NCBI GenBank assembly: GCA_905236065.1
Contig: CAJONZ010000088.1
Span: 1 to 39,642, forward strand
Length of the DNA stretch: 39,642 bases
Source: an uncultured Bacteroidaceae bacterium
GTDB lineage: Bacteria; Bacteroidota; Bacteroidia; Bacteroidales; Bacteroidaceae
Reading direction: 5' to 3'
Shown here: positions 745 through 36,645 of the stretch, one piece after another
How the letters are laid out: the number at the start of each line of letters is the position of its first letter
Position numbering within the stretch: position 1 is the first letter of the stretch
Notes under the pieces: model-generated
What the model was told of the DNA's origin: nothing
Seen by the model: only the letters and a program-made list of their open reading frames with translations
The model's database searches: none
Program-made: the position numbers and the translations under genes

Positions 745-785
745 CCTGTTTTCTATTTAATAATGTGTAGGGTGCTGAGGTGGTG

Positions 786-16700: not shown

Positions 16701-17116
16701 ACGACCCTTGTCCGCCAGATTTCCAGATGCCACCGAATACGCTGTTCCGTTTCTTCTCCAAGAAGGGGGCGGGCGACAACCTGATATCGAACACCGAGGC
16801 AAACCAGCTGAATCTCTGGGGCGATAACTGCTGTGCCGAGGGCAAGGGTGCCTATATCTATGCCCGGCCCAAGGAGACCAACCGCTACGGACAGACGGTT
16901 TTCATACCCTCTTCGGGCTATTGGAACGGTAACGTTGCCGGACTGATGAAAAGCCACTATCAGGAAGCCCTCAGTAGCTATTTGTGGACGACGGGAAAAG
17001 GTGTGTGTGTGTTGATGAAGCCCGTGTGCAACCAATACACGCACGATGCGTTCAAGTACGACCTTGTCCTGCCTTACAGCACTGCCATGCCCGTCCGCCC
17101 CATGAAGACGGAATAG
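13763..17116 (+). CDS. Large fimbrillin-like lipoprotein with FISUMP-like C-terminus, candidate tip adhesin
   Basis: 1117-residue predicted lipoprotein. Lipobox LLLSAC (Cys22), then DYGSTRAATGD with Arg60 as the candidate maturation site. The N-terminal half keeps degenerate fimbrillin signatures (WRTSIHWPYG, MRFYAVSP, QRDLLFGMSQ, LDFQHLLTAIRFAQG). The C-terminal 250 residues read YQWGRPTALP, then DPCPPDFQMPPNT, then TVFIPSSGYWNG and SSYLWTTGKG, which is the FISUMP (Fibrobacter succinogenes major paralogous) type pattern found at the end of some Bacteroidota fimbrial tip proteins. Last gene of the plus-strand operon; the start at 13763 overlaps the previous gene by 11 bases, and an ATG at 13775 would avoid that overlap. 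The tip role is inferred from size, position and C-terminal domain. Confidence 0.83.
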   Translation: MRNNMVNRKYILFFSVLLLSACTDKLLDAFNADAEDSEGMAFTLNVREQKDMAYDYGSTRAATGDSEELANELFGARPLSGESQGIQLYTLPLPVMGIHPGTVGQGDHNSTTLASRATAADIVSAGSSPLNFHDSLTIWGYTNTGYQLYKQNLVKKIQGWRTSIHWPYGQGETMRFYAVSPSLENVDILVDNSNTVGYSEAPQLTYKVPDVPSKDGIDQRDLLFGMSQEISIAAGPPGKNGDGQGEYESTGTTEKEQHLGDDDKKINLDFQHLLTAIRFAQGKIPVGVHIKQIKLENIKNQGTYLPDDDDDVLMPWQVVADKGRWNVESATEGNYTLTTDWTSEQYQYTASVNPDNSSEHVYKNAGGENVYIDGGQILFLMPHNITAAAELLVTCDVKIYERDANGDLLTDGSGHYIVQKTCSNITLKASLQGCRWKKGYTITYYLSVGKVSEGYYLLAEPVAATSNNHESSDVPVSGSFTIHSYRNYLDYSDNEAGTDVFTAVPWQVTGFSDAEDGIYDPANCPAWLTSISGFAMEPAKSPIPVNGSGTGMSQHVSYQLKKQEIVASKSHTTILDANPTVSNFDLSNKIPDGTSSGTSRSSQETANCYIVNAKGSYTFPTVYGNAIGGNPSLLGDSRFKDHEGNTITSAYIFTQTSHTIYADKDVTSEVVSATDQTAGWRAKQTLETFYVTGPKRTYAGLGENETAKDPIVELLWQDYASQMFSSMAYSEGNYITFTVANPAPCNAVIALKGYKATVTTTTKYKTIYAEGESAAVTTTPSVSDTPDILWTWHIWVTDEVYPNSTSADVDLETNYPSYANGSKLVALKNADGSNAGISLMPVNLGWVPADDSFGKVEQRNIWVEIAQTQPSGDKQKIHLCIHQDAVQELITGTSTVYQWGRPTALPTVKTVAGDDRTIYNNASSPVAMSDGNFSNAAGSFMHDFLQHPNSLMYNLASSNAWWNLANGEPAYWADGTKTLYDPCPPDFQMPPNTLFRFFSKKGAGDNLISNTEANQLNLWGDNCCAEGKGAYIYARPKETNRYGQTVFIPSSGYWNGNVAGLMKSHYQEALSSYLWTTGKGVCVLMKPVCNQYTHDAFKYDLVLPYSTAMPVRPMKTE

Positions 17117-19203: not shown

Positions 19204-22200
19204 TTACTTTATTACAACTTTCAGGTGGCCGAAGATATAAACACCCTTGGGCAGGCCCGGATGGTTGTGACGCAGGGTCGCAGGCGTTTCGTTGCGAGCC
19301 ACGCGACGGCCTTGGAGGTCATAGACATCGCAGGGCCAAGGGGTATCCGTGTCCTCGGAGAACGCTGCGTTCTCGAAGGGCTCTACGTCCTCCTCGGATT
19401 CCGTGTCGTCGGTTTCTTCCGTGTCACCGGCGAAGCGAACCTTGATGTAGCGGATGCTTGCATGGTCTTTGACTTCGGGCTCATAGACGTAATAGACCTT
19501 GTTGTGATAGACGTAGGTGTTGTGGCGCTGTGCCTTGGTGGCGTTGCGAGCGTCTGACCAGTGGGCGTTCTCCCTCTGTCCCTTTGTGGCTACATCTGCG
19601 GCAGTGAAGTTGGCGGAAGCGGTGATGGTGGTGTATTCCATGTGTCCGCGCCACCAGTTCTCGTTCGTGTAGAAGCCTGGCTTCTCCACGGCTGGGTCGT
19701 AGGCGTAGAAGTCGAGCGAGCCATGAGCACCCACAGTGTTGCTCCACGGAATGCTGTCGTTGTTGACATTTCCCTTGCCTGTGAACGGACGACCGAAGAC
19801 CATGACGGCGTGGGTGGACATGTTGACTTCGCCCGTGCCGTCGGGGTAGTCGGGTTGGCCACTGCCCGTATCAGAGCCGATGTTCTGATCCAGGTATTTA
19901 CCCTTCAGCTTAATCTTTGACGCATCGTCGAGCACCGTTGGCGCACCGTTGGGCAGGTAGAGGTCAACGTGGGGCTTGATGGCCGTCGTGTTGTCGCTGC
20001 GCTTGGTGATGGTGGTTCCGTCCTCAGCGGTGATGCTGGTCTTCGGACTGGCGGTACGGATGACGACGGGCCAGCCTGCGGGGATGAACTGTGGGTTACC
20101 CATGCCGTTGAGTTGGCTGACAGAGTTGAGCACCACTTCGAGCGGTCCGGGCTTTGCCACAGTGCAGGTGAAGGCGGCATCGACGGTGGAGTTCAGTCGG
20201 CTGTCGAACGGTACATAGTATGAGCTGTAGTAGTTATAGATGTTGGCACCGTTGTCGTCCTGACCCTTCACCTCGCCCTTCTGTACCTCCAGGCGGAGTG
20301 GCATACTGTTGTTGTAGGGCCAGTCGCCGGGGATGCCGACGGGTTTCAGAAGCCACTTGGTGTCTTGGATGCCGTAGCTCTTTCCATCGTCAGACCATTG
20401 GTGTCCCTCGTAGTAGTCGCCCGTCTCCTCCAACTCATTGTCAGTGTGGACGGTGATGCGGTAGCGGTGGGCGGCATCGATGCTGAGGTAGTTGGTCTGG
20501 ATGTTCTTCGTCACGTTGTGGTCGGCATCGGTGTCCCAGTTTCCAGGGATGACATCGAGTGTGCGGAAGGTGAAGGCCGTACCGCCGATGTCGTCCATGC
20601 GGAATGGGGTGGCACTGCCGACGGCGGTCACCATCTTGGTGGTGCCAGCATCGCCAGAACCAGCCACGCCGTTGACGTAGAGACCCTGTGTGCCGAGGCG
20701 GTATTGGCTATAGCCTGCGGTGCCTGTGGGCTCAAAGTAGAAGATGCTGCTGGGGTCGTACTCGGCAGGCAAGATTTCAATGTTGCCTCGCATGGCGGGG
20801 TGCGGGGTGAGGCGGCGTGTCTTTGAGTCGCCTTCGCTCAGGCCTGCGACGTACTCGTTCAGCTGTCCGAATGTCTTGAAGGTACTATGTTGCTCGTCAG
20901 TCTCGATGAAGTGGAGATGACGGCTTCCTGCTTGCAGGGTGCTGCCATCGTAGCCGGCATAGTCCCTCTCGGACAGGAATCGGTAGCCGCTGATGAAGCG
21001 TGGTCCCGTGATTCCGCTGATGTCAGTGCCGTCCTTGTCGAGCTGACGGCGCGAGAGGGCTTCAATGCGGTAGTAGCCTTGTGCCATCGGCACGAGATTG
21101 TTGCTGACGAAGCGGAGTGGCAGGTCGGCATCGGCTGTGGGTCGGTCTTCTTCCGCAGGGAGTTCGGCTCCGCCTTTCTTCAGGAACTTACCGGCATAGA
21201 CCACTTCGCGGATGTGGTCGAGCACCTCGAAGTCGGTGGTCGTTGGGTCTGCCTTGTAGGCGTTCAGCTTGCTGTAGTACTCTCGGTTGACGTGGTTGTC
21301 TGCCACATTGGGCTTGAGTCCGCCCACGTAGCCGGCACGGTCAAAATAGGGGAGCAACTGCTCGGGAGTGGCGACGAGACGCCAGTTGGCATCTTGCCAG
21401 CCATTGCCATTGCGCACGGTTGCTGCGTTGGCATTGTATTGGAGCTGTGCCTTGTGCTCTGCCGTCTTGTGTACCATGTAGTGACTGCCGAAGGCATCGC
21501 CCGTGGTGTTGATGTAGGCACTGGTTGGGTGCATGAGGAAGGCATTGCTGTAGAGGGTGTTGCCCCTGAACATCTCATAGACAGCATTGGTGGCGCCGGC
21601 AGTGTTCTTCTCTTCGTCGGTGGCACCCACGTCGCCCTCACCATATTTGTATTGTACAATCTTCCGCTGCTGATAGTTCTTCTTCTTCGTGTAGGTGGCG
21701 TTGTCGGATTCGGGGGTCGTCGTGGTTCCCTCCGTGGGCAGTGCCGCCGTGGTGGTGACGACTACGTTGTCCCAGCCGGAACCATTGAGAGTGGCGTAGC
21801 GGTTGTGGAGCGTGAAGCCATACGGGTCGCCGACGGGTGCCCACAGGTAGTTGTTGGTGTAGTGGGCCTCCTTGTCGGGTCGGGCACCCACGCCGTCCTT
21901 GTAGGAGAAGTTCATCAGACCGTCCGCATTCTCGTTGCAAGTCATCATCTGGTACCAGTTGGTGGTGTTGCGCCCCATCTCGGTGAAGCGGAACTGCTTG
22001 GGGTTGACCTCATAGACCACGTCGATGAGTACGATGCGGTTCTTGTGGGTGTTGTCCAGCTTGGTGATGATTTTTCCGTTGGCGGCTTCCACGGCATCTT
22101 TATCCTCGGCATAGCCTCCGCCTGTCTTTTCCTTCGTGACAGACTGCCATGTCACTTCCCAAACCTCCGTGAATCCTTCTCCCGGAGACACTTGGTCGGT

Positions 22201-25200
22201 GGTGTATTCGGTTTCGCCTGTGGAAAGGTTTTGCCAGATGTATTTTCCTTCGGAGTTCTTCGCCTGTACATCTGTCATCTCGGAGCGGAGCACGTCGCGC
22301 TGGTAGAGTTTGTAGTTACAGAACTGACGGCGCATGTACCAAGGAACATCCAGCATATTGCCAATGCCGACGCGGTTGACTTTCAGATTCTTGACTGGAT
22401 AGCTGACGAGGTCGCGCAGGGAGGCTTTCTTCATGAGAGCCTTGATGGCTGCCCGGTCGTCATCGTTGGTGATTGTGGTAAGGTCGGCTTTCCCGTCGCC
22501 GTCGATGTGCCCGTCCTTGAAGTCCCAGGCAATATAATTCTGATAGTCGTCGTAGTTGTAATCCTCGTCCGCCTTAAACTGTAGGTATTCGTCATAGTCG
22601 CCCGTACCATTCAGGTCGGTGTCGCCATGATAGTGCAGGTACTCGGCCATGTGACGACGGATGAGCTTCTTGTTGAGCGCCTGAGCCACGGTCGTTGCTC
22701 CGAGCTGCTCGTCGGTGTTGGTGTAGTCGCTGCTGTGCTGGTGGGCGATGACAAGGTGGTAGATAACCTGTTGTGCGTAGGCCATGAGGTCCTTCAGGTA
22801 GAACGGCTTCACGTTGTTGACGTTGTAGAAGTTTCCTGTCGGGTCGGAGGTGTGGGGGTCGCCGGCCTGATAGATGAACTGCTCGTTGTCCTTCAGCGTG
22901 TTTCCGCCCTTCAGACGTTCAAAGGTGATATACTTCAGGATGTTTCCGTCCTCGTCGATGATTGCCAAGTAGGGGGTGCCGTCTTTGGCTACGGCCAAAG
23001 CCCAGCTGCTGGCCTCGGTGTTGGAGAAGTTGATATTCGCCTCTTCGTCACTGAAGAGCGAGAGGTTTTCGTCCTGCAAGTATTTCTCGTAGTTCTTCAA
23101 CTGGAAGTCGTAGGGATCACCGATGAAGGCCCACTTCTGATAGTTGTCTTCCGTCTGATTCGGGTCGTTTCCGTATGCCTGTTCGCCGTCGTCATGGCTG
23201 TTGAGCCATCCGTAGGTGGTATAGACCTGGCTGCCACCGCCGCTTTCCACAGCTTTGCCCACCCAGTCCTTGATGACGTCCTGCACTTTTCCTTCGGCAT
23301 CGTAGAGGTAGCCCACGATGTCAAGTTCGTATTTATAGACCGTGATTTTTCCGCCCTGGATGCTCTGGTCCCACTTGAAGTAGGCGTTGGTCCAGGTCAT
23401 CTGGTCTTCCTTGGCCTCGTCCTCCGTGGTGAAGAAGGGCTCCATGTCGCTGTCAACGGTATAGACGTAGGTAATGATGGGGTAGCCGTTGTTGGGCTTG
23501 TTGGCCTCCGCCTCATTGCCGATAGTATAGTCCTTGTATCCTCCAAAGGTGGTGATGGAGGGGAGCGTGGTGGGAAGCAGGTTGGTCACTTGCGTACCTG
23601 TTCCCGTGGCTGGGTCGTAGTTGATGTAGCAGGTGTAGGAGCATCCGTAACGCTTGAGGGTAGTCGGCATGTTGACGACGGCATCGCCGTATCTTACCTC
23701 AGCCTTGTCCTTGTAGGCTTTCAGGTTGCCGTATTGGTCATAGACGCGAATGTTGGCATCGAAGCAATTGTTTTGTCCGGCATCCTCGTCCTCGATGACC
23801 GCCGTGCAAATCTTGGTCTTTTGGATGGAGTCGGTCGGCGTGGAGAGACTGAATGGGATGGTGATGTACTGTGATTTGCTCGGATCCTTGCTGTCAGGAT
23901 ATGCGTAGTGCGTCAGCTGCCAATAGTGGTTGGTCTCGTTGGCCGTCTGGTTGTTGATGGGGTCATTCGTGGTCTCCTTCAGGGATGCGGTGCGGATGAA
24001 GGCATCGTCTTCGCCACCCGTCTTGGCATAGATGAACGACCACTGCGTGAGCTGAGAGGTGGTCGTCTCATGGGCGTACTCGGAACTTTCGGGAGTAAGG
24101 TTTATCTCTGAAAGTCCTTTCAACTGGGTGTACCAAACGGTGTCACTGGTGCTGGCCAATATGCGCGTGTAATTCACACCATTCTTGTTGAAGGTGGTTG
24201 TGAGGTCGCTGGCCGGGTGACCGTCGCCGTCTTTTGTGGCTACCAACAGCGGATAGGTGGTGCTGTATGTCTTGTCGTCATACTGTCGGCGGTTGATGGC
24301 AATGAAGTTGTAGGGGTCGCCGATGAAGGCCCAGTGGAGTCCCTTCAAGCCCGTCGTCCAACCATTGTATCCATTGTCTTTAGGGGTGAAGGCACTGGTG
24401 TAGTCCACTCCCTTGTCGCTTGTCTTGTCGTAGAAGACCCAGGTGCTGCCATTGACAGACAGGTCGAGCCAGGTGGCGTCGGCGTTGAGGTTGTAGTTTG
24501 GATCGTTGAGGCTTGTCAGGACGCTCGGACTGGTGAACAGGTGTACGGGGGTTCCGCCCTCTTTCGGTGTGTTCAGGTCATCCAACTCGTAGAGCACGTC
24601 GATTTTGAATTCTGCCTTCGTCTGGCTTCCATCCTTGAATACGTCGGTGTAGGGGCCACCGTCGATGCCGAGGGGATGTTCGGTACATGCTTGCAGTTTG
24701 TAAGCCTTTTCCTCGGTGAGGGTGAAGGTGCTGAACTGGTCGGTGGATGTTTTATCGTCAGGCTTTATAACCGTGTTCTCCGTTTTTGAGGTCGTATATC
24801 GTATATTGTCGTTATATTTTACATACTTACGCTTCAGGTGTCTTGGCACGTCGTTGAGTGGCTCGCCCACACCAAAGTATTCTGAGAGTTCGTCGGTGGT
24901 CTGCTTGTTTATGGCCTTGAACGTGTGGTCACCGTCGTCCTTGTAGGCACTGACATAGACCTTGGCCGGCTCAACGAGACGGATGACGGCGTTGTCGCCG
25001 TTGGCACGGTGATACTCCGGGTAGTCGCCAGTCAACTGCTTCTCGTTGTCGGGGAAGTATTGCAGGTTGATGGGGAAGGGCTGGTCGGTCTTTGCCTCAT
25101 CCGTTGCATAGTACTTCTTCTTCGTTCCGTCGTGTACCAGATAGTAATACACGTCCCGATAGCCCATGAGTTCGTTGTTGGCCTTGAAGCGCAGGGCAAA

Positions 25201-28200
25201 GGTGCCCTCCTCTGTGGAGGCGGCGGGAACCATTTCCCAATAGAAGTCGCCGTAGTAATATTCTCCGTATTCAGGATTCTGAACGGGTTCTGTATTGAGA
25301 CCTCGCTCATCCAGATAGAAGTCAACCATCTGACGGGTGTCCTTCACAGTGTAGTCTGGGAGACGCAGGTGGACGCAGTCGATGACGAAGCGGAAGTTAC
25401 TCTCCGTCTCGTCGAATCGGGCCAGGTTGGCGTTCTTGGTGTTGATGGCCGCCTTGGTTGCACCCGTCTCGTCTTTGAGGTCTTCCGTGTTGAAGAATTC
25501 CGGCTTTGCCATGAAGACTTGTAGTTTGTAGGGGTCGCCCACGAAGTACCACTTCAGGTCTTCGGGCACGGACTCCATGCGGTTTGAAGTCGTCTTGAAG
25601 TTACAGAAGTTGTATCTCTGCGTATCGTCGTCCACGAAGTTGGAACCGTCCCATTTCAGTTTTTCGGTCTTGTTTCCCATCTCACTCCGATAAATCTCGA
25701 ACGTCGTGTAGGGGGCGTAGTAGGCATGGTGCCCCTTGTCATAGCCCTTTTCGTCCTTGTTCATGGTGAAGTCCATGAAGTAGAGGTGGTCATTGTTTTT
25801 GAGCATGTCTGTCACCTCAGCCTTGGTCGGTTCCGTCTTCAGGAAGAGGTCGCTGGTCACCTTATATTTAATATAGGCTCGCTGCGACGTGTTGGGCGAA
25901 GCCAAGTCAGAAGCCAACGCCGCCAATGCCGCTGCGTCGTTGTTTTTTTGCGCCAGCTTTGCGGCTTCTGCTTTTTCGACGGTTGTATAATAATTGTAGA
26001 GGGGCTGCTTGTTGTCGTCCAGCTTCATCTTTTGCTTCGTCTGCCCATTTTCGATGTATTCTTCCATTTGGACATCACCACGGAACGGGCCTTCCTGTAC
26101 TTCGTAGATTCCGTCACCTGCATTTTCAAAAGGCGTGGTCTTCACTTTGGTGCTCTCAACCATCTTGTAGTTGGAGTAGAACGTGTAGTCGCAGTAGGCA
26201 CGTTTCACTTCCAGAGCCAGTATGTCCTCCGTAATCTTGTCGCCCTCGGCATAGCGGCGGTCTTCGGCGGCAAAGATGAGGCGGTGGAGACCTGTCTTCA
26301 TGTTTGCCAGCTTGGTAGGCTTATCACCCTCTGCGGCAGCGAGATAGTCGTTCACTTCGTCGTCGCGGCGGATGACCAACTCAATGTCCTGATAGTTGAC
26401 AGGTATGTAAGGTAACAACTGGATGGCATTCGAGCGGTCTTCCAAGGACTTCGTCACGCCTTCCACGCCTTTGGTGGTCGTCTCCTCTGTGGTGTGAGTC
26501 ACCATCTGCCAGTAGAGTTCCTGGGTGACATCAATGGTGTAGGGGAGTCCAGTTGTGCCAAAACTCTCGACGCTTCGGGTGAATGCGGTTGATACCAGGC
26601 TCATGGTCTTCTCCGTTCCATATCCCGTACAGAGTCCCCAGCTGTCATGCTCGGTCGGTTCCTCTGTCGGGACGCTGACTGGGTAGGTTTTTGTTCCAGT
26701 CTTGTCGTCGGTGACTTCCGACATGACGGTGTAGCAGTTGTCGGCAGCCTCCAGCGTATAGATACCCACGCCCTTGGCACTGACACCCGTGGCCGACTCG
26801 AAGTTGAGCAACTTTGTGTTGTAGGGGTCGTCACCGACAAAGGCCCAGAGCCAGCGTCCTTCACGGAAGGCATCGTTTTCGCCCTTTTGGTACCACTCAG
26901 CCATTCGGGAGTAGGTGTAGTTGTTGTAGTTGTCCTCCCGTTCCTTGTGGAAGGCGAAGGTGTTGTCCATCCAGCAGACACTTCCGTCATTCTCACGGCG
27001 CAGGAAGTATTGGTTGCCCACGTAATGCTTGTGTCCCTCGCCGTCGATGGTGCGTGTGATGCCCTCGTCCGTGTCGAGCACCATGAAGAACCATTTCGTC
27101 TGCATGGTCGCTCCGTTCAGCTGTCCCTTCTCCTGATGGTAGGCTACGTCGGCGGCTACCTGCTCCGGGGTGCTGTATTGGAAGGGCAACGTGCTGTAAC
27201 TCTCCGATGCCGCAATTTCGGCGTTGGTCAGCGGTTTGTACTTAAAGTAGATGTGATAGGTGTCGCCATTATCAATTTCGGGATAGACATCGTCTTGGTC
27301 GCTATTGTCGTCGTGAACCTTCTCGGTCATCTCCTGGTTGCTGTAGAAGCGTCCGTCGCCCACATCCGAGTAGTCAACGAAGACGTTGCTCGTGTTTTCC
27401 TTTTCGTATCGCGTGAAGAGTCGTTGCAAATCTTCCTCCATCTTGACAGGCATCAGCCAGTTGCGTCTCAGTGTGGCCGTCCAGGTCACTTTGGGCTTGC
27501 CGTTCTCGTAGGCGTAGGGCTCCGTTCCCGTCTCGTTGAAGCGGATGCCGTGGAAGGTGTAGTAGCGCACGGTCGGTGCCTTGAAGAACTCATAGTCATG
27601 GCCGTCGGCGTTCTGGTAAGGGTTCTCAAGCGATTCGTCAATGTTACTGTGCCAGTGCAACCAGGTCTGGTCCCAACGGGGGTTGTGCAGGTAGAAGGGC
27701 AGCTTGTTGGTGGCCACGATTCGGATGGCGTTTCCTTTGGGTTTCAGAATCATGAAGGTCTGCACTGCATCGTCCGGGTCGTTGGAGAGGATGAGGCTCT
27801 GGTTCTCGCCTTCGGTGGCCTCGGCAGCCGCCAGCCAAAGGTCGTTGTTGAGGGCGGGCTGAATCTTGATGGCATACGGGTCGCTGCCCGTCATCTTCCA
27901 CATATAGGGCTTCGTACCCTGGAAGTCGAAGTTGCCGTCATGCTTGGGGTATCTCGTGAACTGGCTGTACTGAGCCGGGCGGTCGATGTGGCTGACTTTG
28001 TAAACACCATTTTTGTCTATGTAGGCATAGAACCAGTTATCCCCCCATGAGTACGAGACCATATTATACCATGTGCTGCCCGTCAGGTCCAACGGCGTAT
28101 AGGTTGGTGCCATTTCCGAGGTGAAGTAAGTGTCCTTCACGGTGAAGGGACAGGTCTCCACATTGTAATGATAACGCACATAGACGGTGTCGGAGGGCAG

Positions 28201-31200
28201 ACCGAGCAACAGGGTGGTGCGGTCTGCGTCGGCGAGGGAGTAAGTGTCTGTACTCTCGTTGTATGTGGCGTGCATATAGTAGCTGAAATCCTCCACGTTG
28301 AGCAGCGGACTACGTGCCCACGGCGGCAGGATGGCCGTAGGCCGTGTGGGTTCGCCCTTGGCGCGGGAGGCCGGCTCCTTGGCTATCAATGCCTGTTTTC
28401 CCTCGTTCGTGATGACAATGTATTTTACGTTGGTCGGGGCACCCTCGCCGAAAACAACCTGCGAACGTGTGCCGTCGTAGGTTCCGTCTGCACCGAATCC
28501 CAGTTCCTCCAAGAAGGCGATTTCGATAGTGCTTTCTGGCTTATGCGTACTCAGGAAGACGTATTTCTCGGGACTGTCTTTAAGGCCTGCTACGACTCTT
28601 CCTGCCACGGCCAAGGCCAATGAGTCTCCGTGGGCCAGCAGGGCAAAGTGGTAGGCCCATCGATCCGTAGGACGTGCCCGGTTGAAACCGCTGACGTTGT
28701 AGGGGTCGGGCACTTCCGTGGTGGCATTACCGATAAACTTACACTCCCAGTATTTTCTGTTAGGGTCGTCCATGCCGGGCGCTGTTTCAATCACCATCCG
28801 ACTGGGATTTGCATCCCAATCTACTTTCACGTGATTGTAATTAATGTCGATGGTGTGCCAGTCACCCTCGGAGAGCAACTTGTACTGGTCGCCCTCGGGG
28901 TTGAACGAGTAGCGTACATAGACGATGTTGTTCTTTCCTGTGACTTCGGCGGCGGCGAAGGTCGTTCCAATCAGTTTGGCTGATAGGTCGGTGCCTGCCG
29001 GGATTTCTGTGTAGGTCGTATCGTCACCCGCTTCTACTACCTTTGCCAGATCTTTGTAGAACCTGAAATCCTTGGCCAACGGGCTTTGGAAATGTGTGGG
29101 TATCGAGGGCGACACCTCGCCGAGCTTGCCTTTGTAGCGGAGCGACTCGTGTCCCTCGTTATCGACGATGATGTAGGTATAGGCCAAGGGGCGCAACAGG
29201 ATGGTGGTCTGCGCATTCTCGCCGTCGTTGGCTGGTGCCGCTGAGTGCTGGGCATCCAGCATCGTGAAGTTGGTCACCACGTGGCTGTGGTCGAAACGAG
29301 GCATCAGACGCATGTTTCCGTTGGCATCCTGTACGGCCATGAAGGTGGTGTTCGACATCTTGAGGGTCACGTTGTCGTGGCCTTTACCGTCCGTAATGGC
29401 TGAGGCATCCGTTAGGCTGACGGTCATCGCTCCGCTGTAGGTGGAGGCCATGCTGGCCGTCGCATCCAGTCCGGCACCCGTGGCGTTGGTCGTCAGGTAT
29501 TTCGTGGGATATTTCTTGCTCTGTATTCGCAGGTTGTAGGGGTCAAAGCCGTTCGTCCACGCAGGGGTGACCCCATTGAAGTAGTCAGCCTCGGTTTCGT
29601 CTTTCGTCTTTTCTTGGTAATACCCCTCGTAGTGGTAGCCCATTTCCCCGTCGATGTTGAAGTTGGGTGCGATGTACCAAAGCATTTCGTCCGTGATACT
29701 GTTTACATCGTTGTTGGCGATGGCCGTGGCAGGTGCTGTAGTCGTACTGAGGGTGTTGCCATCGGTGGTTTGGGCATAGTTTTGTCCTTGGCGCACCAAG
29801 AAATCACCTTTCTTCACGGCTCCTTCCGTGGCTGCTCCCGTGTAAGATGCTGCATACTCTTCCTTCACTTCGTAGGTGACGTACTGGTCCATGACGTTCC
29901 CTTTGGTATCAAGAATGTTGTCTGCTCGCAAGCTTTCCGTGTAAGGGGGCAATTGGGTCAACGAGGTGGAGGTGTATTCCTTACCGCCCACAGTGATGTG
30001 CTCGGATACTTTGTATTTGTGGTAACCGTCCATCTTCTTCCCTGTGTGCCAGAAGTGGTATGCCTTCACCATCGGACTGTCGTAGGGACGGATGGCGGCA
30101 TACTTGGCATCCTTCTCGGCTTGTGGGACAGTGTATTTACTGGGAATAGGTTTTCGCATAATCTCCCATCCGTGTTGGTCGAGCAGAATTAGGACGGGGT
30201 CGATGGTCATTTCCTCTATTTCAAACGTCTCACCCATCGTGATGGTTTGGAACCAGTGGTCTTCGTACTTGTACGTCTTGCCTTTCGAATCCCATGGGTC
30301 ACAGTGTGCCCACGCCTTGTAGCGATGCCAGCCTAAGGCGGCAAGCTTTGCATTGTCGGCGGCGGGTTCCTTTACACCAGCCTCCCCTTTTACGGTGGGG
30401 TTGTTCTTCCAATATTGCTCAAAGGAGGTGACGGTACGCCGCTCATTGCTCTCCCCTGGGTCGTTCGTGTCTCCGTCTTCGTTCAGGTCGAGTGCCACGT
30501 CGTCAACCGTCATCAGTCTGCATTGGCTGAGCGAAGTGCCCAGCACCATGTATTCGGTGGGTACAGCCGTGGCATCGCCGACTCCTGCGGGAGCACTGGT
30601 AACGCAGGTGTGCTTGGTGATGGCGCCCGTGACAATATGGCCATAGCCTTTGGGTTGGTAGGTGCGGAAATAGACACGCAATTTTTTGATAGTATCACCG
30701 ACCACCGTTCCGTTGTCGTATTGCAGGTTGTAAAATGTAGAACTGGCACTGCATATCTTGACGTGGTAGGGGTCGTTGTGCTCGCTCTCGAAGTACCACG
30801 TCCATCGGTTACGTGTGCTGGCGGCAGCTCCCATTTGGGTGTTGAGTTGATTCTCACCATACACATAGAAGTTGGCATCGCCGTTTGAGTAGGGGTAGAT
30901 GGCCTTGGTGGAGGTTGACTCCACATTGTCGTGACCATCCTCCTGACGGAAAGACGCTCCACCATGATACTTCAGACGGTAGAACGTTCTGTCGCTATCC
31001 TTGGTTTGTGTGGACGTGTACATCTTGACGGCATCACTCACGTCGTAGGTGACATATATCTGATAGACATCCGCTTCGGTGGTGGCCTCTGCGATGGTTT
31101 TTAGGGTATCGACAACATCCTTCAAAACGTATGTAGCGGAAGAACCGGAACCCGTGACATTGAAACTATTTTTGTCGTAGTAATAGTACTTCGAGACAAA

Positions 31201-34200
31201 GGGGCTGCGGATGGAGGCTGGTACCTGTAACTCTACGTTCTCTTCTTCTGCGGTAATGATAACCTTGTTTTGTTTGTCAATGATGTGGTAGAGGGCACGC
31301 AAATCATTGGTGGATAGAATCATCTGCAACGGGGTGGCGGCGTGGGGATAGACATCGTCACGATAGAGTTTTACCGTCGAATTGGTCTGGTCGTGGCCGA
31401 TGCTGAAATAGTGATCCGTGCCAGCATCGGTTCCTGTGGCAGCCATCAGCTCATAGCCGTTGTTCGTGGTGCGCATGGCAATGAAATAGCAGTTGGCCAT
31501 GGTGTCCGTGCGGAACGTGAGGTCATTTTCGTCGTTCGTCGTGCTTGCGTATTGTATCCATTTATTGTTGGCTACGTTGTGTATCTTGACGGCGTATGGG
31601 TCACCGCCAAAGAGATTCCAATAGTGGGTGTTTAAGGTCTTGTTGGCGTCGTTGGTTGTCGTATGGATTTCTTCGCCGCTCGTATAGATATAGTTCTGTC
31701 CGCCAATGCGCACGTTGAAGCTGCGGGCACCCGTCAAGCGGAAGGGCTTCTCCGAGAGATGGTTGGTGGTGTAGCGCACGTAGATGTCGGTGCCCGTGGT
31801 CGCGGGAGTTTGGGTCATTTTATCCGACAGGTCGTATTTGGTCTGCCCGGCATGAACCTCTCCGTTGGCGGTTGCCGTGTTGTAGAATGTCATCGTCTCG
31901 TCCACCAGGTAGGGACTGCGGATAGCAGCAGGGGTGTTGTCAAAGTTGAGTGGCATGTTGGCGGGAATCTCTCCCGTATATTTGATGGCCTCACGCCCAC
32001 TGTTGTCGATGATGTGGAAGGTGGATACGTATTTCACCAACTCAAACTGTAGCTTCGTGGCGTAGGCTCCATAACGGTTGCGATCGGAATAGTAGTGAAA
32101 ATAAGAGTCATTGCACATCACTTTCACGATTCCATTATGACTACCCCAATAGGCAAGATAGAACTTCATGCCGATGTAGGCATCGTCGCCAGCGGAACCT
32201 AAGTTAAAGTTTTTGTTGACATACCATTGGTTATGCACGGCTAAAGTTGCATAGCCGTCCTCATGTTCCAACAGCATAAACGTAGAATAGGTATCATCGT
32301 TTACAGTAAGTTGGTTATCCCAGTAGTTGCTCGTGTCGTGTTTGAGTTTCTTGTTATCTTTACCATTGGTAATATGAATGTCGTAGGGGTCAAGCCCGGA
32401 GAACGACCACATGAAATACAACGTGTTTGCTGCGGCAGCTCTTGTTCTGACGCCCGTCCAAGAAGAATTTTCGTCCTGCCGGTAATAATAGATTGGGTCG
32501 GCACTATTGGGCGACGAGATACCCTTGATGTTGTACCAGCGTTCACCCTTGAGGTCCATCACCTCAGGGTTGTTCACATAGTTGTAGCCCAAGTAGATTT
32601 CGTTTTGGGTTGATGGTGCCGTGGTGATGGCGCCCTGTGCTGTGGCCACCTCGTCCGTGGGGTTGGCATTGTAGGCGGCGGCCTTCTCCTGTGTGGTGAA
32701 GAAACGGTACTGGCTGTTGGTCATCAATGGGGTACGCAGACCCGTGGGCACGGTCAGCGGCGAAGTAGCCGGCATATAGGCTGAGACAGCTTTGTTGCCT
32801 GCCTTGTTCACCACATGGTAGAGATACAACTGCGTGAGGACAACCTTCTGACGAGCGTCTCCACCCCGTGTGTTGCGTTGCAACAAGGCGTAGGAGTTGT
32901 TATGGTTGTAGAGGTATGACTGTCGGCCCGCCTTGTTGGGGGGAGTTGCCACACCGATGACCAGGCCGATGTCGCTTTGGGTGAAGAAGAAGCTGTGTAC
33001 CTCGTCATGTCCGTGGCTGTTGCTGCCTGTGACTCTGTTGAGGTACATACCGTGGCTGGTACTGTAGGCACCAGCGGTTCCACCGCTCTCCAAGTAGTCT
33101 AACTGGTCGTGCAGGTAGCCGTCGGGCCAGTAGGGCGATTTGATGCGGATGTCGTAAGGGTCGCTGTTTTCGCTGAAGAAAATCCACTGGTAGTTGGCCG
33201 AGGGAAGTTCGTTACCGCCGTCGCCGAAGTTCGGACGGTTGTGCCAGTCTTTGTCCGATGCTTTCCAATATTTGTCGTTGATTTGCACATGGTAGCGCGT
33301 GGCAGATGCAACCGTGGTTCCCAAGGCTGGCACCCCGGCAGGGCAGTTTGTCGCATCGTAATAATAGCCCACATAGACCTCGGTCGAGGGCAGGGCTGCC
33401 AGCGCATCGTAGGTGGTGAGGGCCGTTTCGGCGGCAGCCGTGCGGTCCTCGTCGGTGGCTGCAGCCGTGTAGGTTGCTGCCTCGGCCTGTGTGGCAAAGT
33501 AGCGGTAGTGCAGGCCGTCGTCGATGATGTGGGCCGATTTCAGGTCGGCGGGAATGCTGAGGTCGCCCGTCATGAGGCGCGGCACACGGGTGCTGACGGC
33601 GATGTCGCCCGATTTGTTCACTACGTGGTACCCTACGGTGGCGGCATTCAGCAGGATGTCGGCCTCGCTGCTGATGTTGCTCAGTTCGTCTTGATAAGTC
33701 CAGGCGGTGTTGCTGAAACGAACCACCTTCGTGTCCGTGCCCGGCACGAGGTTGCTCACAAGTTTGTTGCCCGTCAGCAGGGCCCAGGTGCGAACGCAGG
33801 TGCCTACGGCTGCGTCGGGAATCAGCCACGAGGTCGAGCCACTGCCGTTCCATGTGCTGCTACCCGAACCGTTCGCGTTGCTTTGGGGAGCCAGGAAAAA
33901 AGTGCGGGCAACAGGCATGGCACTGCGGATAGTGATGCAGTAGGGGTCGGGCACACCACCAGTGGCCGAGCCGAGCGTCCAGAGGTAGTAGTCATTCCAA
34001 GCCACGGCAGGGTCGGAGGTGTTGTCGCGGTGGACGTAGTAGGAATCGTTGGAGGATTCGAACGTTTGACGGGAATTTGTAAAGCCTAAGTACCGTTTTG
34101 AGGACTCCGTACTGGTGTTGATGGTGTAGCGCGTCTGTCCCGTCAAATCTACCTGTAGGGTGTTGGAACCGAAGGTGATGCTGTTGTCGGGGTCGTACTC

Positions 34201-36645
34201 GTACTTGACATAGACCGTGGTGTTGTCCGTGCTGGGATAGACGGTGCTCTCCACGGCATTGCCGTTGAGCACATAGCGTCCATCGGTTACGGTGAACTGG
34301 TCTTCCGTGTAGTATTTGTAGTTCGTTGCCAAGGGGCTGCGTAACCAATCGGGCAGATTCAGGGACGCACCGGCTACGTCCTGTTGCGTGGTGCTATAGA
34401 CGACGTGGCCACCGCCTGTGTCGCCATACGTGATGCTGACAATCTTGTAGGTGACGTGGATAAGTCGCTCCCGGTATGTTAAGGTGATGGGCGCAGCAGA
34501 CTTGATGAAGTCCAGGTCGCTCTCCAGGGTGATGGGCAGGGCGCTGTTGCTGCCGTAAATGTTGAACCACTGCGTACTGCCCCAAAAAAGTACATACACC
34601 TTGTCTGTGTCGGCGTGGCGGGCGAAGCAGATGAGGGTGGGGGTGCCGTCGCCGTTGTTCAGATAGGCGAATTTCTGCACCTCGGTGGCCGTGTTGTAGA
34701 GTTTGTTCTGTGTGCCCGTATGTCCTGCGTTGTTGCCGTTGACAGGCTGTCCGTTGTTGTTCCAAGCGGAAGAAAGATGATAGCCCGGATAGGCCACGTT
34801 CCTCAGCTCAATGTCGTAGGGGTCTTGGTGGGTTCCGCCATCCAGCGTCCACAGCTGATTGTCGTAGCCCGTGTAGGCAGCGTTGGGACGTGCGTTCTCG
34901 GAAACGCTGGAGAATTGCAGGTAGGTTTCGGCCTCCGTGTTGGGACCACAGCAGAAGGAGTAGGTGGTAGTGCCGTCGAAGTGCACGGAACCGTCTCCCG
35001 GACCAACGTCGTAGCCCACGTAGATGTGCCGTCCGTTGTCCTTGGCATTCACGTCGGCATAGGTGGTTACTTTCTCGGCTACACCGTCGGTATTGGCGGT
35101 AGCAGCGGCCACCGTGGAGAAAAAGCGGAAATTCGTGGCGTAGGGGCTTTGCAGACGGCTGTCCAGCGAAAGGGCGCCCGTGCTGGTGGGAGCCACTGTG
35201 TAGCTGACCACCTCCACGCCCGAACGGTTGATAAGGTGGTAGGTGTAATATTGGTCTGCGTCGGCGACCTCCTCCAATGTCCAGCGAATGCTGGGTTCAA
35301 ACTGCTCCACGTTGTCCAAGCCGTTCATGCGGTCGGCTCGCAGGTCGAAGGGAGCCGTGCCGCGGCCATCGTGGTAGTGGATGAACGTGCGGTTGGACAT
35401 GTTGATGCCGTTGTTGACACTCGTGCCAACGCCGTTGCTGGAGAAGTACAGGCCGATATGGTTGTTGTCGATGTGGCGCAGCCGCAACTTACCAGAGGGG
35501 GGGTAGGCCGTGGAGACGAATTGGGGAGTGACTAAGGCGAGTCGCTTGTTTCCGTCCTCGGCATACATGTTTCTGTTCATGGCCAGGTAGCGGCCATCGA
35601 CGGAGACGAAAAAGTCGTCGTCCACCTTTGTCAGGGTGACGCGCTCGGTCTCGTTGCTGTAGGTAGAGATGGCGGTCGCCGGATTGTTGTTGCCATTGCG
35701 ATGCAGGTATTCGCCGTTTGCATTTTTGATGTAATAGCGTTTCCCAGTGGATGGTTCGTTGTAGGCCGTGTTCAGGAAGGTTTCCTTGGCGGTGAGCAGG
35801 TTCTCCCAGGCAGTCTGAATCTGGGCAGTGGTTCCGTTCTTGGCCGTGTTGGCTGCATCGATGGCGGACTGGAGTGCCGTCTTGTAAGAGGCATCCTTTA
35901 TTTGATTGTAGGCTGTACCTACGGTGGCGTTGTCATGCAGTGTCTGGGAGACACTGATTTCACTTTCCAGATACTCCTTCGGCTTGTAGGGGATGACAAT
36001 CCATTGACACAAGGTGTTGTAAGCGACCTTGCCGTCCAGATAGACAAAACAACCCTCTTCAAATCCTCGGTAGGCAACCATGTAGCCATCATCCGTGGTG
36101 GCACCACTGGCGTTCTTGCTGATGACGAATCGGACATGGTTCGTGTTGGCAATATTCTCAATGCTTTTCACGTAGCCTTTGCTGCCATCGGGCAGGACGT
36201 CGTCCGTCCTCGTCTCGATGCCCATGTCTCGGTCATTGGAGGCTGCTGCCAGGTACGTGCGCCCACTGCCATTTTGGGTGTACATGAAGATTCTCCCGCT
36301 GCCATCCTTCTTAAAGTAAAACACCTGGCTGTCGTCCGTGAAGTCAGCTGTATAGATGCGTCCCTTCGTGGTGCGCCATCCCGCCTGTCCTTTGTCGTCG
36401 GTGTCGGGCTGCCGGGTCGAAAGGTTCATGCGGTCGCTCACGGCATTGCGAATCCAATAGCCGGTTGCACCCGTAAAGTCTATCTCGTCGGCCATCTTGT
36501 ACCATGTCGTCTGAGCCAACACTCCGTTGACTACTCCCCCCAGGAGGAGCAGCAAAAGGAAAAGGAATCGTTGTAAAAAGGTATGGTGTGCCCACATCTG
36601 GGTCGTTGTCTTATCTGGTTGAATCCCACTTATCACCTTCTTCAT
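19204..36645 (-). CDS. Giant modular secreted protein (5813 residues) with about 14 diverged repeats
   Basis: Uninterrupted 17.4-kb reading frame encoding a roughly 640-kDa protein. The signal peptide hydrophobic core is at about residues 26-43 with likely cleavage at VLA/QTT (44/45); Met17 is an alternative start giving a more ordinary signal length. A short helical segment (about 225-295) precedes a beta-trefoil-like stretch (YYIKNANGEYLHRNG). About 14 modules follow, each with a W-x-F-x-G-DPY-x-h core, alternating with a segment like YHVVNKSG...P..LRSP...YRFF...IYVxYxY. Near residue 4675 there is an EF-hand loop (DTDLNGTGDYDE). A secretion-type C-terminus (VYDLQGRRV...KGVYIFGHLKVVIK) ends the protein. 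I do not recognise a named family for the module and see no catalytic motif; surface adhesin or matrix protein is an inference. Confidence 0.9.
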   Translation of the reverse strand: MKKVISGIQPDKTTTQMWAHHTFLQRFLFLLLLLLGGVVNGVLAQTTWYKMADEIDFTGATGYWIRNAVSDRMNLSTRQPDTDDKGQAGWRTTKGRIYTADFTDDSQVFYFKKDGSGRIFMYTQNGSGRTYLAAASNDRDMGIETRTDDVLPDGSKGYVKSIENIANTNHVRFVISKNASGATTDDGYMVAYRGFEEGCFVYLDGKVAYNTLCQWIVIPYKPKEYLESEISVSQTLHDNATVGTAYNQIKDASYKTALQSAIDAANTAKNGTTAQIQTAWENLLTAKETFLNTAYNEPSTGKRYYIKNANGEYLHRNGNNNPATAISTYSNETERVTLTKVDDDFFVSVDGRYLAMNRNMYAEDGNKRLALVTPQFVSTAYPPSGKLRLRHIDNNHIGLYFSSNGVGTSVNNGINMSNRTFIHYHDGRGTAPFDLRADRMNGLDNVEQFEPSIRWTLEEVADADQYYTYHLINRSGVEVVSYTVAPTSTGALSLDSRLQSPYATNFRFFSTVAAATANTDGVAEKVTTYADVNAKDNGRHIYVGYDVGPGDGSVHFDGTTTYSFCCGPNTEAETYLQFSSVSENARPNAAYTGYDNQLWTLDGGTHQDPYDIELRNVAYPGYHLSSAWNNNGQPVNGNNAGHTGTQNKLYNTATEVQKFAYLNNGDGTPTLICFARHADTDKVYVLFWGSTQWFNIYGSNSALPITLESDLDFIKSAAPITLTYRERLIHVTYKIVSITYGDTGGGHVVYSTTQQDVAGASLNLPDWLRSPLATNYKYYTEDQFTVTDGRYVLNGNAVESTVYPSTDNTTVYVKYEYDPDNSITFGSNTLQVDLTGQTRYTINTSTESSKRYLGFTNSRQTFESSNDSYYVHRDNTSDPAVAWNDYYLWTLGSATGGVPDPYCITIRSAMPVARTFFLAPQSNANGSGSSTWNGSGSTSWLIPDAAVGTCVRTWALLTGNKLVSNLVPGTDTKVVRFSNTAWTYQDELSNISSEADILLNAATVGYHVVNKSGDIAVSTRVPRLMTGDLSIPADLKSAHIIDDGLHYRYFATQAEAATYTAAATDEDRTAAAETALTTYDALAALPSTEVYVGYYYDATNCPAGVPALGTTVASATRYHVQINDKYWKASDKDWHNRPNFGDGGNELPSANYQWIFFSENSDPYDIRIKSPYWPDGYLHDQLDYLESGGTAGAYSTSHGMYLNRVTGSNSHGHDEVHSFFFTQSDIGLVIGVATPPNKAGRQSYLYNHNNSYALLQRNTRGGDARQKVVLTQLYLYHVVNKAGNKAVSAYMPATSPLTVPTGLRTPLMTNSQYRFFTTQEKAAAYNANPTDEVATAQGAITTAPSTQNEIYLGYNYVNNPEVMDLKGERWYNIKGISSPNSADPIYYYRQDENSSWTGVRTRAAAANTLYFMWSFSGLDPYDIHITNGKDNKKLKHDTSNYWDNQLTVNDDTYSTFMLLEHEDGYATLAVHNQWYVNKNFNLGSAGDDAYIGMKFYLAYWGSHNGIVKVMCNDSYFHYYSDRNRYGAYATKLQFELVKYVSTFHIIDNSGREAIKYTGEIPANMPLNFDNTPAAIRSPYLVDETMTFYNTATANGEVHAGQTKYDLSDKMTQTPATTGTDIYVRYTTNHLSEKPFRLTGARSFNVRIGGQNYIYTSGEEIHTTTNDANKTLNTHYWNLFGGDPYAVKIHNVANNKWIQYASTTNDENDLTFRTDTMANCYFIAMRTTNNGYELMAATGTDAGTDHYFSIGHDQTNSTVKLYRDDVYPHAATPLQMILSTNDLRALYHIIDKQNKVIITAEEENVELQVPASIRSPFVSKYYYYDKNSFNVTGSGSSATYVLKDVVDTLKTIAEATTEADVYQIYVTYDVSDAVKMYTSTQTKDSDRTFYRLKYHGGASFRQEDGHDNVESTSTKAIYPYSNGDANFYVYGENQLNTQMGAAASTRNRWTWYFESEHNDPYHVKICSASSTFYNLQYDNGTVVGDTIKKLRVYFRTYQPKGYGHIVTGAITKHTCVTSAPAGVGDATAVPTEYMVLGTSLSQCRLMTVDDVALDLNEDGDTNDPGESNERRTVTSFEQYWKNNPTVKGEAGVKEPAADNAKLAALGWHRYKAWAHCDPWDSKGKTYKYEDHWFQTITMGETFEIEEMTIDPVLILLDQHGWEIMRKPIPSKYTVPQAEKDAKYAAIRPYDSPMVKAYHFWHTGKKMDGYHKYKVSEHITVGGKEYTSTSLTQLPPYTESLRADNILDTKGNVMDQYVTYEVKEEYAASYTGAATEGAVKKGDFLVRQGQNYAQTTDGNTLSTTTAPATAIANNDVNSITDEMLWYIAPNFNIDGEMGYHYEGYYQEKTKDETEADYFNGVTPAWTNGFDPYNLRIQSKKYPTKYLTTNATGAGLDATASMASTYSGAMTVSLTDASAITDGKGHDNVTLKMSNTTFMAVQDANGNMRLMPRFDHSHVVTNFTMLDAQHSAAPANDGENAQTTILLRPLAYTYIIVDNEGHESLRYKGKLGEVSPSIPTHFQSPLAKDFRFYKDLAKVVEAGDDTTYTEIPAGTDLSAKLIGTTFAAAEVTGKNNIVYVRYSFNPEGDQYKLLSEGDWHTIDINYNHVKVDWDANPSRMVIETAPGMDDPNRKYWECKFIGNATTEVPDPYNVSGFNRARPTDRWAYHFALLAHGDSLALAVAGRVVAGLKDSPEKYVFLSTHKPESTIEIAFLEELGFGADGTYDGTRSQVVFGEGAPTNVKYIVITNEGKQALIAKEPASRAKGEPTRPTAILPPWARSPLLNVEDFSYYMHATYNESTDTYSLADADRTTLLLGLPSDTVYVRYHYNVETCPFTVKDTYFTSEMAPTYTPLDLTGSTWYNMVSYSWGDNWFYAYIDKNGVYKVSHIDRPAQYSQFTRYPKHDGNFDFQGTKPYMWKMTGSDPYAIKIQPALNNDLWLAAAEATEGENQSLILSNDPDDAVQTFMILKPKGNAIRIVATNKLPFYLHNPRWDQTWLHWHSNIDESLENPYQNADGHDYEFFKAPTVRYYTFHGIRFNETGTEPYAYENGKPKVTWTATLRRNWLMPVKMEEDLQRLFTRYEKENTSNVFVDYSDVGDGRFYSNQEMTEKVHDDNSDQDDVYPEIDNGDTYHIYFKYKPLTNAEIAASESYSTLPFQYSTPEQVAADVAYHQEKGQLNGATMQTKWFFMVLDTDEGITRTIDGEGHKHYVGNQYFLRRENDGSVCWMDNTFAFHKEREDNYNNYTYSRMAEWYQKGENDAFREGRWLWAFVGDDPYNTKLLNFESATGVSAKGVGIYTLEAADNCYTVMSEVTDDKTGTKTYPVSVPTEEPTEHDSWGLCTGYGTEKTMSLVSTAFTRSVESFGTTGLPYTIDVTQELYWQMVTHTTEETTTKGVEGVTKSLEDRSNAIQLLPYIPVNYQDIELVIRRDDEVNDYLAAAEGDKPTKLANMKTGLHRLIFAAEDRRYAEGDKITEDILALEVKRAYCDYTFYSNYKMVESTKVKTTPFENAGDGIYEVQEGPFRGDVQMEEYIENGQTKQKMKLDDNKQPLYNYYTTVEKAEAAKLAQKNNDAAALAALASDLASPNTSQRAYIKYKVTSDLFLKTEPTKAEVTDMLKNNDHLYFMDFTMNKDEKGYDKGHHAYYAPYTTFEIYRSEMGNKTEKLKWDGSNFVDDDTQRYNFCNFKTTSNRMESVPEDLKWYFVGDPYKLQVFMAKPEFFNTEDLKDETGATKAAINTKNANLARFDETESNFRFVIDCVHLRLPDYTVKDTRQMVDFYLDERGLNTEPVQNPEYGEYYYGDFYWEMVPAASTEEGTFALRFKANNELMGYRDVYYYLVHDGTKKKYYATDEAKTDQPFPINLQYFPDNEKQLTGDYPEYHRANGDNAVIRLVEPAKVYVSAYKDDGDHTFKAINKQTTDELSEYFGVGEPLNDVPRHLKRKYVKYNDNIRYTTSKTENTVIKPDDKTSTDQFSTFTLTEEKAYKLQACTEHPLGIDGGPYTDVFKDGSQTKAEFKIDVLYELDDLNTPKEGGTPVHLFTSPSVLTSLNDPNYNLNADATWLDLSVNGSTWVFYDKTSDKGVDYTSAFTPKDNGYNGWTTGLKGLHWAFIGDPYNFIAINRRQYDDKTYSTTYPLLVATKDGDGHPASDLTTTFNKNGVNYTRILASTSDTVWYTQLKGLSEINLTPESSEYAHETTTSQLTQWSFIYAKTGGEDDAFIRTASLKETTNDPINNQTANETNHYWQLTHYAYPDSKDPSKSQYITIPFSLSTPTDSIQKTKICTAVIEDEDAGQNNCFDANIRVYDQYGNLKAYKDKAEVRYGDAVVNMPTTLKRYGCSYTCYINYDPATGTGTQVTNLLPTTLPSITTFGGYKDYTIGNEAEANKPNNGYPIITYVYTVDSDMEPFFTTEDEAKEDQMTWTNAYFKWDQSIQGGKITVYKYELDIVGYLYDAEGKVQDVIKDWVGKAVESGGGSQVYTTYGWLNSHDDGEQAYGNDPNQTEDNYQKWAFIGDPYDFQLKNYEKYLQDENLSLFSDEEANINFSNTEASSWALAVAKDGTPYLAIIDEDGNILKYITFERLKGGNTLKDNEQFIYQAGDPHTSDPTGNFYNVNNVKPFYLKDLMAYAQQVIYHLVIAHQHSSDYTNTDEQLGATTVAQALNKKLIRRHMAEYLHYHGDTDLNGTGDYDEYLQFKADEDYNYDDYQNYIAWDFKDGHIDGDGKADLTTITNDDDRAAIKALMKKASLRDLVSYPVKNLKVNRVGIGNMLDVPWYMRRQFCNYKLYQRDVLRSEMTDVQAKNSEGKYIWQNLSTGETEYTTDQVSPGEGFTEVWEVTWQSVTKEKTGGGYAEDKDAVEAANGKIITKLDNTHKNRIVLIDVVYEVNPKQFRFTEMGRNTTNWYQMMTCNENADGLMNFSYKDGVGARPDKEAHYTNNYLWAPVGDPYGFTLHNRYATLNGSGWDNVVVTTTAALPTEGTTTTPESDNATYTKKKNYQQRKIVQYKYGEGDVGATDEEKNTAGATNAVYEMFRGNTLYSNAFLMHPTSAYINTTGDAFGSHYMVHKTAEHKAQLQYNANAATVRNGNGWQDANWRLVATPEQLLPYFDRAGYVGGLKPNVADNHVNREYYSKLNAYKADPTTTDFEVLDHIREVVYAGKFLKKGGAELPAEEDRPTADADLPLRFVSNNLVPMAQGYYRIEALSRRQLDKDGTDISGITGPRFISGYRFLSERDYAGYDGSTLQAGSRHLHFIETDEQHSTFKTFGQLNEYVAGLSEGDSKTRRLTPHPAMRGNIEILPAEYDPSSIFYFEPTGTAGYSQYRLGTQGLYVNGVAGSGDAGTTKMVTAVGSATPFRMDDIGGTAFTFRTLDVIPGNWDTDADHNVTKNIQTNYLSIDAAHRYRITVHTDNELEETGDYYEGHQWSDDGKSYGIQDTKWLLKPVGIPGDWPYNNSMPLRLEVQKGEVKGQDDNGANIYNYYSSYYVPFDSRLNSTVDAAFTCTVAKPGPLEVVLNSVSQLNGMGNPQFIPAGWPVVIRTASPKTSITAEDGTTITKRSDNTTAIKPHVDLYLPNGAPTVLDDASKIKLKGKYLDQNIGSDTGSGQPDYPDGTGEVNMSTHAVMVFGRPFTGKGNVNNDSIPWSNTVGAHGSLDFYAYDPAVEKPGFYTNENWWRGHMEYTTITASANFTAADVATKGQRENAHWSDARNATKAQRHNTYVYHNKVYYVYEPEVKDHASIRYIKVRFAGDTEETDDTESEEDVEPFENAAFSEDTDTPWPCDVYDLQGRRVARNETPATLRHNHPGLPKGVYIFGHLKVVIK
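21820..34824 (-). repeat. Fourteen DPY-core protein modules inside the giant gene
   Basis: The Asp of each DPY core falls at residues 608, 900, 1162, 1419, 1682, 1958, 2368, 2647, 2922, 3273, 3704, 4110, 4510 and 4940. Intervals are 257-292 residues for most of the N-terminal half (with one of 410) and 351-431 in the C-terminal half. Examples of the core: SENSDPYDIRIKSPYW, NLFGGDPYAVKIHN, WAFIGDPYNFIAIN, WAFIGDPYDFQLKN. DNA identity between modules is low, so this is an old protein-level repeat, not a recent tandem duplication. Confidence 0.85.

Follow-up and report, generated by a model that had tools for sequence, protein, structure and literature searches.

The window analysed here is the whole 39,642 bp contig CAJONZ010000088.1 (GenBank assembly GCA_905236065.1) of an uncultured Bacteroidaceae bacterium, and the gene under study, at 19204..36645 on the reverse strand, is a single frame open for 5,813 codons. 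We consider that this giant protein is probably an exported, fimbria-associated, lectin-like adhesin that works like Mfa5 of Porphyromonas gingivalis. The observations that carry this reading are a repeated module, a conserved locus, a lipoprotein partner ending in QW and the genes for a type IX secretion system (T9SS) in the same genome. An earlier sequence-only reading had recorded the 17.4 kb frame of 5,813 residues, which was confirmed, and had called the product a secreted, very large surface-type repeat protein. The very large repeat protein is supported, and it is probably secreted.

The tripeptide DPY occurs 14 times in the giant; when its residues were shuffled 2,000 times, DPY appeared 1.3 times on average and never more than 8 times. 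A W is located 5–9 residues ahead of DPY in 12 of the 14 cores. The strict string W-x-F-x-G-DPY, said earlier to return 14 times, is found only three times (residues 3699, 4105 and 4505), and the core as first written is therefore a loose consensus. An iterated profile recovered 98 modules across nine giant proteins, all 14 window modules among them. As that profile includes the modules that it scores, the search was repeated using a profile made from the modules of the relatives only, with no window rows. Modules 1–9 were recovered with E values of 1.3e-16 to 7.7e-36, module 10 with 1.8e-6 and module 14 with 1.4e-4, and modules 11–13 were not significant (0.17–0.24). The best match to a reversed or shuffled sequence was 0.015, and the neighbouring, presumably unrelated 605 aa lipoprotein gave 2.7e-4, so E values near 1e-4 are not safe as evidence for a module. 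With a profile confined to the trefoil part of the module, the values were 9.5e-8 for module 10, 1.4e-5 for module 13, 6e-5 for module 14, 8.9e-4 for module 11 and 0.007 for module 12 (controls: reversed sequence, 0.027; 605 aa lipoprotein, 6e-4). The trefoil core has profile support in 12 of the 14 modules. Because the 605 aa lipoprotein reached 2.7e-4 and 6e-4 at the level of chance, modules 11 and 12 are not claimed by profile; they are candidates based on the DPY core and on the conservation of that core in four orthologues. The paired segment (YHVVNKSG...LRSP...YRFF...IYVxY), which had been described as returning with each of the 14 cores, was recognised in nine of the 14 modules (residues 467–2835), with one fragmentary weak match at residues 3547–3598, and was not recognised in the remaining units.

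All modules lie on the reverse strand. Module 1 (beta-grasp-like part plus trefoil) is at 34630..35241, and modules 2 and 3 are at 33769..34410 and 32863..33630. Module 4 (32023..32838, residues 1270–1541) is the unit folded by AlphaFold2; the unit suggested earlier, residues 1420–1680, spans DPY to DPY and thus cuts the trefoil. Modules 5–9 are at 31321..32019, 30460..31290, 29260..30180, 28444..29175 and 27673..28422, respectively. Module 10 (26488..27354) contains the DPY trefoil core, and its beta-grasp part was not recognised. Candidate modules 11 (25426..25998) and 12 (24133..24870), whose profile support is not above the control, are followed by module 13 (22948..23703), which is weak and found by the trefoil-only profile, and by module 14 (21547..22290), which overlaps the best conserved stretch of the giant.

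The AlphaFold2 model of module 4 consists of a predicted beta-trefoil and a small domain. The model matches known trefoils across the whole domain, and the trefoil fold is common in carbohydrate-binding modules. For the small domain, the nearest solved structures are beta-grasp folds of the ubiquitin/PB1 type, none of them a Foldseek match at E≤0.001. The sequence-only reading had proposed a module without a named family and an undescribed repeat fold. The former holds, as no Pfam or NCBIfam match was found in the libraries searched. The latter is not supported and a new fold was rejected, as the predicted beta-trefoil is well known. The sequence family of the module is undescribed in these libraries, and the trefoil fold and the general kind of system were known already. 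InlB-B/MucBP-like repeats, a first guess for the paired segment, are neither proven nor excluded by structure lists that hold mainly ubiquitin/PB1-type domains. The predicted trefoils differ from ricin-B-like lectins; the Macrolepiota procera lectin 4izx is 11 % identical to the module model, and a scan of 47 modules listed 18 families at E≤1, the ricin-type Pfam family not among them. QxW repeats are a hallmark of ricin-type lectins, whereas the modules of the giant share a conserved W...DPY junction. A profile search of the PDB sequences with the modules gave no match at E≤10, and other searches of sequences with known structure were likewise empty. A predicted fold can now be assigned to giant proteins of gut Bacteroidales (approximately 3,000 to 8,400 residues) that match no Pfam or NCBIfam model.

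The modules within the giant are only about 18–30 % identical to each other, and for each of the 14 the best-scoring counterpart is found in one of eight other proteins, not within the giant, though by a narrow margin for modules 1 and 13. Three 100 % own-protein entries in this comparison are an artefact of the 30-residue extension, which overlaps the next module. Window modules 5–7 correspond to modules 3–5 of a paralogue in the same genome and to modules 1–3 of the relative in G004, but window modules 6 and 7 lack a close counterpart in the large orthologue G034C1. As the modules match those of other proteins better than their own, we infer that they are old, individually conserved and position-specific rather than freshly amplified. 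Recent tandem amplification was rejected given the low identity within the protein and the best matches lying in other proteins. A mobile-element origin is unsupported, as no relative was found in viral contigs (searched with two short patterns) or plasmids, the phage collection being outside the search. A degenerate DNA pattern for the core had no match in the genome of the window.

The giant begins with a signal-like hydrophobic stretch (residues 1–45, 36511..36645, read directly from the sequence), and the region ahead of module 1 (residues 46–466, 35248..36510) was not matched by the module profile. Residues 2742–5813 are colinear with orthologues in G008, G019 and G027 at 37–40 % identity, and residues 3030–5813 with that in G034 at 37 %. 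Identity to four orthologues rises to 48–54 % over residues 4852–5813. The C-terminal region at residues 5034–5768 (19342..21546) lies within this stretch and ranks with the best conserved parts of the protein; scans of the Pfam and NCBIfam libraries gave no family match for it.

Using a 2,276-residue piece as query, relatives were found in seven of 61 genomes, namely that of the window and six of the same genus, as open frames of 2,970–6,009 residues without internal stops. Among these relatives is the paralogue in the genome of the window, of 2,957 residues. Within the genus, 10 of 45 genomes gave a match to a C-terminal profile, and in six of these the match spans the full profile. Genomes sampled at three levels were searched with the module profile: it matched in 25 of 399 for the family, in two of 393 for the order and in one of 395 for the phylum, namely that of the window; these three tallies include this genome, and at most six candidates per genome were scored. 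Part of the family matches are short trefoil-only stretches in proteins of 588–1,873 residues, with E values no better than ~5e-9. The distribution of the giant family is thus patchy. A contig scan with a single 796 aa query gave no match, and an alignment of residues 4852–5813 as query found ten named contigs labelled Prevotella, Prevotellaceae, Bacteroidaceae, Bacteroidales or uncultured bacterium. The source titles of four of the ten name roe deer rumen or omasum or sheep abomasum. The host is a gut bacterium related to Prevotella of the ruminant gut.

Three architectures can be distinguished. The first, that of the window, has 5,192–5,990 residues in five complete copies and 12–16 modules by profile, and its C-terminal half and tail are conserved. 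The second is smaller: four copies have 2,957–3,486 residues and that of G007 has 4,284, and the profile finds 8 to 10 modules in the three proteins tested. The third has three modules followed by other sequence, without the tail, in proteins of 3,265 (G004) and 2,455 (G579) residues and, in three genomes of another genus, of 7,851, 8,060 and 8,447 residues. These last three proteins contain 14–15 scattered VYGGGN-like motifs past residue 2300. At these loci (L072 7539 to L074 3434 in G744, and the matching loci in G779 and G772), proteins of approximately 4,100–4,200 and 7,850–8,450 aa lie side by side, with 3–4 VYGGGN-like motifs in the smaller and 14–15 in the larger. Two 2,800 aa pieces of these proteins had no Pfam match at E≤0.01. 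Several lipoprotein-looking frames, read by eye, precede the VYGGGN-type giants, and at each of four loci one such frame has a ...VYNW ending.

The C-terminal tail (residues 5769–5813, 19207..19341) resembles a short T9SS sorting signal. It reads YDLQGRRV...LPKGVYIFGHLKVVIK, following the pattern YDLxGRxV ... GVYI ... KVVIK, and its match to TIGR04183 is sub-threshold; five of five family members match this model at E≤1, the best at 2e-4. The T9SS machinery is present in the genome, where SprA, GldM, PorU and PorV each score above the cut-off, as do six of the eight TIGR04183 matches. According to the part of PMC11969387 that was consulted, Prevotella intermedia cargo carries short signals with motifs of the kind found in the giant tail and with only three predicted strands. 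Close to their ends, both the giant and these short C-terminal domains have motif B (YDxxGR), motif D (GVYI) and motif E (KVVxK), but the distance between motifs B and D is approximately 18 residues in the giant and 1–6 in P. intermedia (PMC11969387, same part). A T/GI cleavage-type sequence is present in the tail of a neighbouring 2,501 aa protein, and none was seen in that of the giant. Although the giant is not filed as T9SS cargo by the curated cut-off, it most likely works like one.

The 605 aa lipoprotein, which ends in TDQW, is encoded 26 bp downstream of the giant on the same strand (17360..19177, reverse) and represents a conserved partner, probably of a fimbrillin-like family. Among 17 giants examined (window, eight others from the scan of 61 genomes, six from named contigs not already counted, G147 and G435), 16 adjoin a same-strand frame ending in QW, with gaps of −26 to 601 bp. 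The locus start truncates six of these giants, and for G034C24 the frame as called gives a neighbour without a signal. These stretches carry 118 other frames of at least 200 residues; the QW ending occurs in 16 of them, each one the neighbour of a giant. Large-type giants and that of G007 have the QW neighbour downstream; in the other four small-type cases it lies upstream. Ten of 11 large-type partners match Mfa_like_1 (PF13149) at E≤1 (best 1.6e-11), and six of a mixed set of eight match fimbrillin-like families at E≤0.1 (2.2e-39 at best). The solved 'putative cell adhesion protein' 4k4k was matched at 7.4e-21 by a profile that combines four small-type partners with one further fimbrillin from the cluster of the paralogue. 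Gene order alone points to a physical pairing of the giant and the lipoprotein. The giant gene sits inside a fimbrillin cluster, which suggests membership of a type V fimbria system.

If the reading as an Mfa5-like adhesin is correct, the giant would be exported by Sec via its N-terminal signal, PorV would recognise the short C-terminal tail, and passage would be through SprA. Attachment to surface polysaccharide by the PorU sortase, or incorporation into a type V-type fimbria aided by the adjacent ...QW lipoprotein, would follow. The mature protein would be a long chain in which about 14 beta-trefoil units follow one another and small beta-grasp-like domains space nine of them. Every unit would have a conserved identity of its own and be displayed for multivalent binding. 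The ligands would most likely be glycans, whether of plant fibre, of mucus or on neighbouring cells. In P. gingivalis, the ancillary fimbrial tip protein Mfa5 requires the T9SS and other fimbrial proteins do not, as stated in the parts of PMC8313007 and PMC7835359 that were consulted. Like the giant, the Mfa5 described there is a large multi-domain protein of a fimbrillin cluster, and it carries a T9SS-type C-terminal signal, which the giant tail resembles. However, Mfa5 genes are 2.9–6.6 kb, and some genotypes encode von Willebrand and Ig-like domains (PMC8313007, same part), in contrast to 17.4 kb of trefoil/beta-grasp modules with a ...QW neighbour.

Several findings weigh against this reading. 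The tail scores 17–18 bits with TIGR04183, below the curated cut-off of 23 bits, and Foldseek returned no match at E≤0.001 for either model, trefoil or small domain. The 605 aa partner itself has no Pfam match. In a profile–profile comparison of the two partner types only 48 N-terminal columns aligned (probability 61 %), so the case for a common ancestry is based on the Pfam family and not on this test. A QW partner is missing beside the giant of G004, of the third architecture, and at the four loci of this architecture in another genus (one cut by the contig end) no QW frame was seen and a ...VYNW frame lies upstream instead. The conserved trefoil positions (W144, DPY, I156, N158, F187, L190 and L199) look structural, no conserved acidic/aromatic pair marking a sugar site stands out in the module alignment, and the structure-match lists for the trefoil also hold growth factors, protease inhibitors and ryanodine receptor domains, which have non-sugar roles. 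Given the structural look of these positions and the many non-sugar uses of the fold, glycan binding is the weakest step.

The same positions would suit a structural stalk or coat (S-layer-like or spacer), with trefoils as rigid beads and binding confined to the conserved C-terminal half, where the best conserved stretches lie; the number of modules also varies between orthologues (12–16 by profile). We regard this as unlikely, as the modules keep a position-specific identity across proteins, which pure spacers need not do. Lectin and galactanase trefoils among the structure matches, and the origin of four of the ten named relatives in roe deer or sheep stomachs by title, would fit a surface scaffold that tethers plant polysaccharide for nutrient capture, with the fimbrillin-like lipoproteins as glycan-binding partners and not pilus subunits. 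However, no SusC/SusD or glycoside hydrolase family is listed for the window frames scanned (frame 1–543 and small frames being outside the scan), and the SusC signature reached only 16.5 bits against a cut-off of 46.2, making such a scaffold rather improbable.

SprB of Flavobacterium johnsoniae is a giant, repetitive, T9SS-dependent surface adhesin. A filament of this kind, moved by the gliding machinery and unrelated to fimbriae, would account for the size, the repeats and the presence of the T9SS including SprA and GldM. It seems very unlikely here, as the tail resembles a type A signal with no type B model among the matches listed, no PorP/SprF-type family is among those listed for the neighbouring frames scanned, and the partner family is probably fimbrillin-like. 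The giant thus resembles SprB as a large repetitive surface adhesin and differs in signal type and neighbours, and gliding is not indicated.

The giant and the QW lipoprotein could, more tentatively, form a dedicated two-component appendage, in which the invariant QW C-terminal strand plugs into the T9SS-exported giant to give one hybrid fibre of type V-style pilin and about 14 specialised lectin-fold beads. This is doubtful at present. Titles and abstract openings of open-access articles in PMC contained nothing describing the module family or the QW pairing, and the giant proteins treated in the part of PMC13104272 that was consulted belong to other phyla or families. If the hybrid fibre is real, this class of appendage is described in none of the literature searched. 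The giant and its ...QW lipoprotein provide a simple gene-pair rule with which genomes can be scanned. They also offer, outside Porphyromonas, a testable link from type IX secretion to type V-type fimbriae. Should the modules prove to bind glycans of plants or mucus, they would bear on how bacteria of the ruminant gut hold on to fibre.

The remaining genes of the cluster are on the forward strand. They encode a 556 aa lipoprotein (780..2450; weakly Mfa_like_1, E 0.027, below the cut-off), a 290 aa lipoprotein (2472..3344, direct reading), a fimbrillin-like protein (3354..4679; PF13149, E 3.6e-12), the 2,501 aa second large protein (4717..12222), whose short T9SS-like tail reads EVT/GIEDH...GVYIRGGKKVLIK, a 487 aa lipoprotein (12310..13773) and a 1,117 aa lipoprotein (13763..17116) convergent with the giant–partner pair. 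The last two have counterparts in eight of the ten named relatives, as convergent lipoproteins of approximately 1,060–1,124 and 460–516 aa, with a frame inserted between them in L041. In seven of those eight loci (seven of ten overall), the same position is occupied by a second large protein that has a similar tail and is truncated where the locus ends; L035 and L043 end ahead of this position, and L037 carries other genes there. The G+C content of the second large gene is 0.45–0.49, compared to 0.49–0.59 elsewhere in the window. A UbiA prenyltransferase (37099–37995, forward; E 1.1e-28) is divergent from the giant, and a small protein with a strong DUF3990 match (38316–38795, forward; E 5.6e-43) is encoded near the fimbrial cluster.
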